Below, one piece after another: positions 9,352 to 13,259 of a stretch of 57,529 nucleotides of DNA. The stretch spans positions 1 to 57,529 of the forward strand of contig VGLU01000007.1 in assembly GCA_016882195.1 (NCBI GenBank). Reading direction: 5' to 3'. Positions within the stretch are counted from its first letter, which is position 1, and every line of letters starts with the position of its first letter. Position numbers and translations under genes: made by a program. This DNA comes from Thermoproteota archaeon. GTDB taxonomy: Archaea > Thermoproteota > Methanomethylicia > Methanomethylicales > Methanomethylicaceae. The notes under the pieces were generated by a model, which saw nothing but the letters and a program-made list of their open reading frames with translations, was not told the origin of the DNA and ran no database searches.

Positions 9352-9470
9352 GCGGGGATTCCCAAGCCAGGTCAAAGGGGTAGGACTGAGTGGTTGTGGG
9401 CGAGAGCCTGCCGCCCAGTAAGCTCCTATGTCGAAGGACTTCGTGGGTTCGAATCCCACTCCCCGCACCA
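9352..9470 (+). tRNA. tRNA-Leu with a 31-nt intron (most likely anticodon GAG)
   Basis: Acceptor GCGGGGA (9352-9358) pairs with TCCCCGC (9460-9466), then A discriminator and encoded CCA. The D arm and the long variable arm (CGAAG/CTTCG) are typical leucine. Anticodon stem TAGGA (9381-9385) pairs with TCCTA (9424-9428); the interruption is an intron. A four-base pairing ACTG/CAGT with three-base bulges places the cuts after GAG (9388-9390) and before G at 9422. This leaves the loop C-U-G-A-G-G-C with a purine at 37. Cutting after position 33 would give UAA, also leucine. The 3' end was used as an integration site. Confidence 0.85.
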
Positions 9471-10382
9471 AACTTTTTGGGAAAAAGTTCCATCAAAAAA
9501 CCATCAGCCCCGAGTTTGGATGTTCCAATTACGGTAAATTTTCTTACCGTAATTTTGATTTTACGGTAATCCAGGACTTTAGGGAGTTCTGCCTGTTCGA
9601 GAGGAGGCTGGCCAGGGGCTCGTCAGACCATTATTCCAACACTGTTTCAAGGCTGCTCGCCTTCACCAAGAGAGGTGCAAATGAGGTCACGGTGAAGGAT
9701 ATCCGGCAATTCCTGTCATTATACAGAAATAACTGGTCTTATGCGAACCAGCTCAAGGCCCTGAAGCTCTTCTTCAGAGAGTACCTTAAGAAAGACCTTA
9801 TGGACGGCTTCGTATTCTCCCCAAGACAGTTCAATTTCAACCGATACTTGCCCAAGAAAGAGGACTTTCGGACTTTCTTTGAAACCCTTGAAAAAATAGA
9901 CGATAAGGCCCTGTTCCTCTTCTTCGCCTCTAGTGGACTTAGGCGGAATGAGGTTCTCAATTTACAGATAACCGATATCGATCTTGAAAAAGGGATTTGC
10001 TACCCTAACCACCAATCGCAAACCAAAAGCGCAATCTACGGATTCTTCAACAATGAGACTAAGAAATACCTCAAAGAGTGACTAAGTTGTAAGAGCGTCA
10101 GATCTCTAAGAGTATTCGCTATATCCTCAGAAAGAAGGCACATGCCTTTCAAACATGCAAGATTGAGGACCAGACTTGAGATAGCCCCCAAGGTGCTACG
10201 GTTCTGGTTCGCCAACGAGATGGCTCGCCTAGGAGTCCCGGACAGGTTCATAGACGCATTTCAGGGGAGGATTCTGCGCTCTCTTGGCGAGACACTACAC
10301 TGACTACTCGTTAGAGAACCTGAGGCAGACATACGATAGGGCTAGGCCGAAGGCCTTAAGTTTGACCAATGCGCTTATTTGA
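9428..10382 (+). pseudogene. int: Tyrosine recombinase (archaeal integrase), inactivated
   Basis: The frame opens inside the tRNA-Leu T arm and encodes a SAM-like core-binding domain (Y-S-N-T-V-S-R-L-L-A-F-T-K-R) and the first catalytic Arg region (F-A-S-S-G-L-R-R-N-E-V-L-N-L). A TGA at 10079-10081 interrupts the frame, which then continues unchanged with H-A-R-L-R-T-R and F-W-F-A-N-E-M-A-R-L-G-V-P. A frameshift near 10270-10280 separates this from A-R-H-Y-T-D-Y, which contains the catalytic Tyr, and from the natural end at 10382. One nonsense mutation plus one indel inactivate it. Translation through the tRNA 3' end means the integrase gene overlaps its own attachment site. Confidence 0.85.
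9445..9470 (+). repeat. Left attachment site (3' end of tRNA-Leu)
   Basis: The last 26 bases of the tRNA gene, covering T loop to CCA, differ from 11636-11661 at only three positions. This copy keeps the tRNA functional. Confidence 0.7.
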
Positions 10383-10411
10383 GGGTTTAAAGATAGGAGT
10401 TAGTGGTGCAT

Positions 10412-10495
10412 ATGCCAAGATTTGTGTCAAGAATTATAACGTTCCTCATCATCTTAGTAATATTCTACATAATTTTAATCGCCCTCGGATATTAA
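10412..10495 (+). CDS. 27-residue single-helix membrane microprotein
   Basis: ATG at 10412 opens a 27-codon frame. A basic N-terminus (P-R-F-V-S-R) is followed by one strongly hydrophobic helix rich in Ile and Leu, with a short G-Y end. A GGAG lies at 10396-10399, about 12 bases before the start. Codon-by-codon conservation of hydrophobicity is unlikely by chance, and the competing 60-codon frame across the same bases looks random. Function unknown. It lies just after the integrase pseudogene inside the decayed element. Confidence 0.5.
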   Translation: MPRFVSRIITFLIILVIFYIILIALGY

Positions 10496-10583
10496 AAAAG
10501 GTAAGGCTAAAGCATTGCAAGCTTGAGCCCTGCGAACAAAACCGATATTAAATGAGGCGCGAAGATTTTATAGCGGTAATGCA

Positions 10584-10892
10584 ATGTCGAGACGTAGTTT
10601 TTTCCTGTTCGTAGCCATCTTCAGTGCGCTTTTCATCGCCACTTCCTTCTACGGTGTTGTAAAGCCTTCCATCTCAGAGATAAGGGTAGTCGAATACGGC
10701 CTTCCTGCACCGTGGCTGAGCGTAACGACGTCATTAGTCAGCAACGCCTTCTGCGTCAGTGCTTTCTGCATTCCTGAAACTCATTTTAGTGTGATCTGGG
10801 CAGGCCTGATAATAGACGTCTTTTCCTGCGGCATAGTTGCCCTTGCTCTTGCATTTATGATAGGAAGAGTGGCGCGAACGAGTCGAAAGTGA
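10584..10892 (+). CDS. Small two-helix membrane protein, unknown function
   Basis: The 102-residue frame starts M-S-R-R-S with a hydrophobic helix at about 6-26 and a second at about 70-94, ending R-V-A-R-T-S-R-K. The loop between contains Cys57, Cys62 and Pro/Trp residues and would face outward if both ends are cytoplasmic (both ends are basic). I do not recognise a family. It is cargo of the tRNA-Leu element or a host gene trapped by it. Confidence 0.5.
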   Translation: MSRRSFFLFVAIFSALFIATSFYGVVKPSISEIRVVEYGLPAPWLSVTTSLVSNAFCVSAFCIPETHFSVIWAGLIIDVFSCGIVALALAFMIGRVARTSRK

Positions 10893-11098
10893 GGGAAGGG
10901 GTTATCGGTTCTGAAAAGAAACTCCCAGGCTTGCATCCTAAACCAAGCTCAATCATAATCAGCGACCCCGTCCTTACCCTCTACACCATTTCTTGACTGT
11001 GCATAGCTATTGGGGTTGGGGCGGTAAGATCCGCGCGATCTAACTATTAATCAGATTGCTATAACCTAAAATTAGATATCAGAGAACAAAAAATGGAA

Positions 11099-11416
11099 TT
11101 ATGAGCTTCGCTCCTTCTTTTCTTCCTTCTTCTCTGTAACAGCTTCCTTTGCTCCCTTTCCAAAGGCCTTTGCCACTCCAAAGCCCTTCTTGAGCCCCTT
11201 TCCAACGACCTCTCCTGTCTTTTCAGCAGCCTCTTCAGCCTTACCTTTTTCTTCCTTGGATTCGCCTGACAAAATGGAAGCTCCTAAAAACAGTACGGGC
11301 AATTTAATATGAAAAATTAACCAAAGAAACTTAGGATATGTTACAGCTGGTTTCCTAAAAACTCTTTTTTTATAAGCGATTGTTGAGACCTTTATCCCCC
11401 ATTCAATGGTGCCCAC
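11099..11416 (-). CDS. Lys/Glu-rich small protein with hydrophobic N-terminal part
   Basis: Up to 105 residues. The C-terminal 55 residues are a low-complexity, strongly charged helix (repeated G-K and E-K-K-E) that reads like a coiled-coil or nucleic-acid-associated tail. The central L-P-V-L-F-L-G-A-S-I-L stretch is hydrophobic. The long N-terminus before it may be non-coding, because no well-placed start with a Shine-Dalgarno site is visible. It is on the opposite strand from the integrase in the same element. No family recognised. Confidence 0.4.
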   Translation of the reverse strand: MGTIEWGIKVSTIAYKKRVFRKPAVTYPKFLWLIFHIKLPVLFLGASILSGESKEEKGKAEEAAEKTGEVVGKGLKKGFGVAKAFGKGAKEAVTEKKEEKKERSS

Positions 11417-11517
11417 ACACTAATGGTTCAAATTCTCATGGGTGCAAAATAAATCTGGTTCTTATCCCTTTTTCTAAATTTTGAAGGAAAAACTTTTGCA
11501 TCACTCAACGACATAGT

Positions 11518-11586
11518 ATGGACCGGCTGGGCGTCCCGGACAGGTTCATAGACGCATTTCAGGGGAGGATTCGTGGAGGTAGTTAG
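11518..11586 (+). pseudogene. Second integrase fragment (C-terminal piece)
   Basis: Forty bases (11533-11572) are identical to 10235-10274 of the integrase pseudogene, encoding V-P-D-R-F-I-D-A-F-Q-G-R-I. The flanking codons M-D-R-L-G differ at several bases from A-R-L-G in the first copy. The frame stops 4 codons after the identity ends. It lies 64 bases before the right attachment copy. It is a remnant of a second, related integrase or of a partial duplication. Confidence 0.7.
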
Positions 11587-11635
11587 AAGGTCTAAAAACG
11601 CCTGATCATGCGATACTACTTATGATTAACCTAAT

Positions 11636-11661
11636 GAGTTCGAGTCCCACTCCCTGCACCA
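11636..11661 (+). repeat. Right attachment site (tRNA-Leu 3' end copy)
   Basis: A 26-base copy of the tRNA-Leu 3' end including CCA, with three mismatches to 9445-9470 and no tRNA body upstream. It marks the distal boundary of the element. Confidence 0.7.
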
Positions 11662-11766
11662 TAAATTTTACTCTCAATATTGAAGTTGCATTTATGCCCA
11701 TAGACTCGATGGCAACTAACGTTGGTATTAAAAAACTATTTAGCATCATGCCTCCAAGTTATAACC

Positions 11767-12231
11767 ATGCCTGATGAAGAGGGACTCCGTCTAGTTACCT
11801 ATTGTGGCTTGTACTGCGGTCTGTGCGCCCAGTACAGCCGGATCCCGAAGCAGGCACAGCAGTTAAGGCAGACGCTTCATGAGGAGGGCTTCGACGATTT
11901 CTATCAGTACGAGCCGGATATGGAGGATGTCTATCCAGTCTTCTCGCAATTCCTGCATAAACTGGCGGAGCTCGAGTGCACCTGCAGGACGGGCAAGGGC
12001 GGCCCGCCGGATTGCAAGATAAGAGAGTGCGCCAAGCAGAGAAACATCAAGGTCTGCCCGCTGTGCAAGGAATATCCATGCCAGCACATCATCTCGCTTG
12101 CGGAGCGCTACCCCCTGCTCATCCAAGATGGAAGGCGGATGCAGAAGGTAGGGGTGAGGAGATGGGTGAGGGAGCAGGAGGATAGGGCGAGACGCGGTTT
12201 CGTCTATTCAGACATCCGGTCGCCTATATGA
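11767..12231 (+). CDS. DUF3795-like cysteine-rich protein
   Basis: From ATG 11767 the protein has 154 residues and opens with Y-C-G-L-Y-C-G-L-C, the hallmark of the DUF3795 family. It continues with C-T-C-R, C-K-I-R-E-C-A and C-P-L-C-K-E-Y-P-C. The spacing suggests two metal sites, either zinc or an Fe-S cluster. The function of the family is unknown. The start at 11767 removes a 15-residue extension that has no family match. It is the first gene outside the right boundary of the tRNA-Leu element. Confidence 0.8.
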   Translation: MPDEEGLRLVTYCGLYCGLCAQYSRIPKQAQQLRQTLHEEGFDDFYQYEPDMEDVYPVFSQFLHKLAELECTCRTGKGGPPDCKIRECAKQRNIKVCPLCKEYPCQHIISLAERYPLLIQDGRRMQKVGVRRWVREQEDRARRGFVYSDIRSPI

Positions 12232-12713: not shown

Positions 12714-13259
12714 TTGGATCTTGGGGGCCTGCGCTTGAGGATAAATACCCTTGAGGAGACCGTGAAGGAGATCCTTGACGGCTACAACAGGAAGCCCAAG
12801 GGCTGGCATATCGCGTCAGACTTCAGAGGGAACTCTCTAGTCCTGGGTCCCGGCAGAGGCTACAGGCTGAAGCTCATGATGATCAACCCTCAGGAGAGCC
12901 TGGGCGTGGGTGTAAGGATTGACGACGTTGGGGAGCTGAGGCGATCCATGGGGGAGGGGGCATCCAGCGGCTTCAGGCCTCTCAACATCGACATTGCCAA
13001 GGAGGTATTTTCAGTCCTGTCCAGCGCGGAGGAGGTAAAAAAACAGGAGGTCATCAGGAGGGTCCTCGATATTGATCCCGTACCCACCTGGGAGTTACAG
13101 GGCAACAACCTGGGGGCGGTGATGGGCGGCCCGTTCATAGCACACCCAGACCTCAGGGCGATATCTAGGAAGCAGTCAGAGCTGGACGAGAGGCTCGCCG
13201 CCGAATTAGATAAACTATTCAGGTTAAAGCACCCGATGCGGGCCTCGATATACAGGTAG
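12714..13259 (+). CDS. Conserved-looking protein of unknown function
   Basis: A 181-residue protein starting at TTG 12714 (no ATG is available nearby). It has an amphipathic N-terminal helix (L-E-E-T-V-K-E-I-L-D-G-Y), a G-P-G-R-G-Y turn, a beta strand L-K-L-M-M-I, a central E-V-F-S-V-L-S-S-A-E-E helix and a C-terminal long helix of Ser/Glu/Leu. It looks like a real coding frame by composition, with codon use like its neighbours. I do not recognise a domain. Confidence 0.6.
   Translation: MDLGGLRLRINTLEETVKEILDGYNRKPKGWHIASDFRGNSLVLGPGRGYRLKLMMINPQESLGVGVRIDDVGELRRSMGEGASSGFRPLNIDIAKEVFSVLSSAEEVKKQEVIRRVLDIDPVPTWELQGNNLGAVMGGPFIAHPDLRAISRKQSELDERLAAELDKLFRLKHPMRASIYR

Follow-up and report, generated by a model that had tools for sequence, protein, structure and literature searches.

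The window analysed here is a 57,529-nucleotide stretch of archaeal DNA from the Methanomethyliaceae group, lying on contig C7 of a 41-contig, 1.45-Mb genome. At positions 9352–9470 of its forward strand, there is a tRNA-Leu gene with a 31-nt intron, the integration target, which was found by ARAGORN with introns allowed but not in the default tRNA scan, and which keeps its place behind a LysRS gene and an HD gene in relatives. ARAGORN proposed the anticodon TAA, yet this call depends on the intron cut, whose placement may be off by a few bases. Most orthologues at this position are called Leu(GAG), which makes GAG the probable isoacceptor. The 26-bp 3′ end of the tRNA (attL core, 9445–9470) recurs 2.19 kb downstream on the same strand at 11636–11661 (probable attR), with 23 of 26 bases identical by direct count. 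A 25-mer of this tRNA end, allowing at most three mismatches, occurs at two places in the window and at none in 100 shuffles, which bears out the repeat noted in the preliminary description. Directly after att, an inverted repeat, AACTTTTT-GGG-AAAAAGTT, can be read from the sequence at 9471–9489 (+ strand), and, as judged by reading the flanks, a similar T-run/A-run follows att in relatives. The G+C content is 39%–47% across the interval versus 53%–57% in the surroundings. An Rfam search gave only a chance-level match.

Out of this tRNA runs a pseudogene (9428–10378, + strand) encoding the SAM-like and catalytic domains of a tyrosine integrase, as identified by Pfam, by alignment and by a profile, A1, made from the alignment of intact relatives. 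Its frame is open from inside the tRNA (9428) to a TGA at 10079–10081, goes on in the same frame, and is shifted near 10277–10283, ahead of the catalytic Tyr region (RHYTDY). Profile A1 matches it with an E-value of 5.3e-73 and one stop. The Pfam matches are Phage_int_SAM_4, Phage_integrase and Phage_integr_3 (PF16795); the last scores 12.9 and 22.2 on the two broken pieces, below the cut-off of 27, and 38.4 and 40.2 in two intact relatives, in which Phage_integrase scores somewhat higher. The window integrase corresponds to IntC, the C-terminal half of a tyrosine integrase of the suicidal (self-splitting, SSV-type) kind. The nonsense codon and frameshift described earlier in an integrase gene starting within the tRNA are thus real, but the gene is only the IntC half rather than a whole integrase.

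The original cargo of the interval is mostly unreadable. The two small membrane-protein ORFs that had been pointed out are indeed present, both on the + strand. The first, at 10403–10495, encodes a single-pass membrane peptide of about 28–30 aa and was recognised by blastn against a second relic of the same genome, at a tRNA-His on contig C6 (85% over 327 nt spanning this ORF and the end of IntC); this roughly 28-aa peptide is the only cargo common to another element. The second, a 102-aa membrane-type ORF at 10584–10892, has no Pfam match and is an orphan, found in one of the 40 genomes of our class sample, namely the own genome; it was dropped as a recognisable viral gene. On the opposite strand, a small Lys/Gly/Ala-rich gene at 11099–11416, whose conserved part spans 11099 to about 11280, has homologues in 10 of the 40 class genomes, own included. 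In two genomes of group g5, G009 and G004, its homologue stands divergently beside the homologue of the 181-aa window gene 12714 (at a distance of 372 bp in G009); several g2 genomes have it near the zinc-finger gene and a tRNA-Pro. Given these neighbours, this gene looks chromosomal and is probably not cargo of the element, as which it was rejected; its position beside the 12714 homologue in the two g5 genomes suggests that backbone DNA lies inside the presumed element. Shortly before the second att copy, at 11518–11572 (+ strand; 11515–11571 as matched by profile A1), there is a further IntC fragment of 55 nt (91%). It is a mosaic, in that the left 35 nt read as the IntC of the C6 relic and the right 40 nt as the local IntC, which suggests recombination between related elements or a second related insertion. 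Recombination between elements has been proposed for suicidal integrases by Badel et al. (2021; PMC8371274).

We compared the site with 18 oriented loci of relatives carrying the orthologous tRNA, four of which have only about 0.4–1.4 kb downstream. The LysRS and HD genes precede the tRNA in nearly all of them. The 12714 homologue follows it in 6 of the 18, at gaps of 0.96 kb to 4.9 kb whose content varies among the six; the shortest gap, in G021, holds no integrase. The zinc-finger gene 12487 (zf_Tbcl_2) is also kept there in G003 only, such that the shared downstream backbone starts at this treble-clef gene (G003) or at 12714 (6 of the 18 loci). The family name DUF1122 was dropped for the 12714 gene, which has no Pfam match. 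Three g5 loci differ from the others, the entire block from 12714 to cysS lying before LysRS in G004 and cysS lying before LysRS in the other two. An integrase relic abuts the orthologous tRNA in G009 (47% over 57 aa), and in G002 a different integrase match is found 2 kb from it. Since such a relic adjoins the tRNA in only 1 of the 18 loci, with a different integrase near one more, the insertion is not an ordinary conserved gene, and the variable occupancy of the tRNA-Leu site supports an insertion. These data, with the broken integrase leading out of the tRNA, agree with the earlier proposal of a decayed element at this position.

The arrangement previously suggested as the empty site, tRNA-Leu followed directly by a DUF3795 gene, failed as a check. 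It occurs in none of the 18 loci, and the DUF3795 gene is found in none of the other 21 genomes of our family sample (22 genomes of the Methanomethyliaceae group, own included) and in 3 of the other 39 genomes of the class sample; it was thus discarded as a backbone marker. The DUF3795 gene itself, at 11722–12231 of the window, matches DNA of G040, from another class, at 71% and was probably acquired laterally. An exact empty site for the host genus was not found among the genomes compared, in which the own genome is the only one of its genus.

Profile A1 has matches in 17 of the 22 family genomes (the own genome among them), usually immediately after a tRNA. Across the phylum, 82 of 300 genomes have matches with E-values up to 1e-10, and the weaker ones may be general tyrosine recombinases. 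The tRNA targets are Leu in the window, His on contig C6, and Arg, Val, Ala, Gly, Glu and Thr in relatives. The frame is open from the tRNA into IntC in 10 of the 15 family loci and broken in the other five. Downstream of IntC, a second att copy was found at 21.3 kb in G021, 4.8 kb in G002 (L082), 3.2 kb in G007 (L083) and 2.15 kb on the own contig C6, most other loci ending too soon for this search. IntC alone is no proof of a whole element nearby, as G012 has an intact IntC without attR within 59 kb. The integrase matched six records in a phage collection, all of them SSV, and two peptide patterns retrieved no relative from IMG/VR.

G021, L082 and L083 share a short ORF, here termed IntN (MPRKG..SITLP...), immediately ahead of attR. 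The G021 copy continues across att in frame with IntC, and IntN and IntC lie at opposite ends of the element; the copies of L082 and L083 are interrupted ahead of att, so that the frame across att is kept in only one of the three paired elements. An att inside the gene, with separate IntN and IntC after integration, is accordingly seen for the family in G021, and the window has IntC and att only. A search with IntN yielded 10 matches in 7 of the 22 family genomes and none in the phage collection; seven aligned sequences (A3) are 53%–70% identical to the first, and five of them are open through the tRNA-like end.

Several further insertions were observed in the course of this comparison. The second relic of the own genome (C6:31604–33849; L008:7605–9850), at tRNA-His(GTG), retains the last ~60 residues of IntC and a wHTH gene like one in the G021 element, with its att copy 2.15 kb on. 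The G021 element itself (contig C123, about 3030–24360; L062, L072) occupies 21.3 kb in tRNA-Arg(TCT) and encodes surface-type membrane proteins, a phrog_1979 protein, an Eco57I/N6-type restriction–modification methylase, a wHTH protein and a second short integrase; an exact-looking stretch of ~4.1 kb occurs twice in it, perhaps by an assembly fault. Elsewhere in G021 (contig C54; L123, about 1917–2058), an integrase N-terminal remnant behind tRNA-Pro(GGG) represents another eroded insertion.

From a profile match and predicted helices, IntN is modelled as a ribbon-helix-helix (RHH)-like domain. RHH_1 matches the IntN of L138 above the Pfam cut-off (22.6 versus 20.5 bits), RHH_5 stays below the cut-off for L134, L135, L137 and L138, L136 has a weak VAPB/PutA match, and the G021 IntN has no Pfam match to RHH models. 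The AlphaFold model of IntN has helices at residues 13–26 and 30–39 with a mean pLDDT of 78.7, the strand not being formed in the monomer. Foldseek with the 46-aa model returned as its first four matches what we take to be RHH proteins, all with E-values above 1. A PDB sequence search gave mostly designed or repeat proteins matching the helix residues, and weakly AvtR (E of 0.058).

A pattern scan of the window revealed three palindromes behind the tRNA, TTACGGTAA at 9529–9537 (+59 from the tRNA end), TTACCGTAA at 9544–9552 (+74) and again TTACGGTAA at 9561–9569 (+91). Palindromes with the core TACNGTA lie at about +70 and +93 in most members of the family, and at about +95 to +104 in the tRNA-Ala ones; 15 of 18 sites have at least one within 260 nt. 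Between +41 and +125, there are 24 palindromes in 14 of 16 loci, where resampling yields 0.10 on average and never more than 2, though the 24 are not independent events, as the loci are related. This count leaves out the tRNA-Leu locus of G015 (no site, no IntC) and the tRNA-Arg locus of G014 (two sites), and the two loci devoid of palindromes are the own C6 relic, in which this stretch is deleted, and the tRNA-Glu member of G002. Each of the seven IntN sequences also contains one palindrome, at nt 74–75 and always as TAC GGT, so that TACNGTA palindromes flank att on both the IntN and the IntC side. Behind the tRNA, members translate the palindromic bases in different frames (YGT, TV), which argues that the palindromes are under constraint as DNA. 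We infer that the RHH domain of IntN binds the palindromes flanking att, GTACGGTAC being the candidate binding sequence. The att is read in the sense of the tRNA in all 15 family loci. Among 15 outside sequences, it is antisense in six (SSV-RH, L165, and five more distant relatives from other lineages, L152, L154, L159, L161 and L081), undetected in eight and sense in one, L160, which also carries palindromes; the SSV-RH integrase has no TACNGTA palindromes.

These findings enable us to propose a putative history, in which the locus is, with good probability, the scar of an element integrated into the tRNA-Leu 3′ end by a suicidal integrase and since eroded. It builds on the observed IntC, att repeat and palindromes and on the split integrase genes of relatives. 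In the free state of the element, IntN (with its RHH domain), att and IntC would form one gene in this order. RHH dimers might attach to the TACNGTA palindromes flanking att and aid assembly of the recombinase. Strand exchange with the tRNA 3′ end would then restore the tRNA with IntC following it and place IntN at the other att copy, and the integrated element, unable to excise easily, would erode. In the window, IntC presumably gained its stop and frameshift while IntN and almost all cargo were lost.

The right end of this scar is less certain than the preliminary description had it. A right boundary at 11661 is probable rather than proven, given the chromosomal-type gene inside the interval and the missing IntN, which an IntN search located neither at the right att copy nor elsewhere in the own genome. 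A real though lesser possibility is that the IntC relic has lost its own attR and is followed by chromosomal DNA, the copy at 11636–11661 and the 55-nt IntC fragment belonging to a different, older insertion. The mosaic make-up of that fragment, the presence of IntC rather than IntN sequence before the copy, and the pairing of the 11099–11416 and 12714 homologues in G009 and G004 would all fit such a history. Against it, the copy matches attL in orientation and in codon phase within a local open frame, low G+C persists to 11634, and the own C6 relic and three relatives show comparable relics running from IntC to att over 2.15 to 21.3 kb.

Two further explanations concern the integrase and the element themselves. 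If the integrase were of the ordinary, non-splitting pNOB8 type, the gene would be whole after integration and its frame through the tRNA incidental; tblastn does reach pNOB8-type plasmid integrases at 26%–29%, and the Phage_int_SAM_4 domain is present. We regard this as improbable, however, in view of the conserved IntN ORFs ending at the far att site, the open frame in two-thirds of the family loci, the Phage_integr_3 match and the exclusively SSV matches in the phage collection. It is more improbable still that there was no element, and that the region is a chromosomal pseudogene stretch whose repeat arose by chance or as a tRNA-derived duplicate. Other tRNAs of the genome have nearly the same 3′ end and part of the interval is chromosomal-type DNA, but the repeat exceeds chance in the shuffles, integrase remnants adjoin two tRNAs of the own genome and many in relatives, and complete elements with the same integrase are found at tRNAs in relatives.

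The scar of a suicidal integrase thus preferred here is an ordinary, heavily eroded relic, which matters little beyond having led to the integrase variant. The chances are about even that this variant represents a distinct suicidal-integrase clade of Methanomethyliaceae-group archaea, with att in the opposite orientation to that of SSV, which places the catalytic half behind an intact tRNA, and with an RHH N-terminal half that would bind palindromes on both sides of att within the coding sequence. Once integrated, such an element might keep its IntN in use, either as a free-standing RHH repressor or as a factor for immunity or directionality that acts against additional copies, and its IntC would depend on transcription of the tRNA. 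In the open-access literature searched, we found no description of a suicidal integrase with an RHH IntN and no paper on mobile elements of this kind in this methanogen-related host group. Site recognition by suicidal integrases becomes directly testable with such a clade, in which a DNA-binding head and candidate sites on both sides of att can be pointed out, and IntN, att and IntC are markers for finding mobile elements in this archaeal group.

Suicidal (type I) integrases, known from the SSV, pTN3 and pT26-2 families and described as exclusively archaeal, carry att inside a gene that integration separates into int(N) and int(C) (Badel et al. 2021; PMC8371274). They share with the present family the att inside the gene, the tRNA targets, a catalytic domain of the Phage_integr_3 type and several tRNA specificities per family; neither 'ribbon' nor 'arm-type' is used in that review. 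The family differs from the SSV family proper (fusellovirus integrases) in that IntN has no PF07935 and att is not antisense. Compared with SSV-RH, IntN is RHH-like where SSV-RH has PF07935 (E of 4.7e-16), att is sense to the tRNA with IntC behind an intact tRNA rather than antisense, and palindromes flank att, which SSV-RH lacks. Cryptic integrated elements of Thaumarchaeota, among them NitEve-E3 with its split SSV1-like integrase (PMC6563490), likewise combine a split integrase with few recognisable genes, but belong to another host group, and an RHH IntN is not reported in the portion of that paper used here. With the pNOB8-type (type II) integrases, the family has in common the SAM-like and Phage_integrase domains, the tRNA targets and a weak sequence similarity; the pNOB8-type gene, however, is whole after integration, whereas G021 has IntN and IntC at opposite ends. 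Lambda-type integrases carry arm-binding N-terminal domains, of a fold unrelated to RHH. The present family would resemble them by analogy if its RHH domain binds the palindromes flanking attP, and it differs from them in that its integrase gene is split by att.
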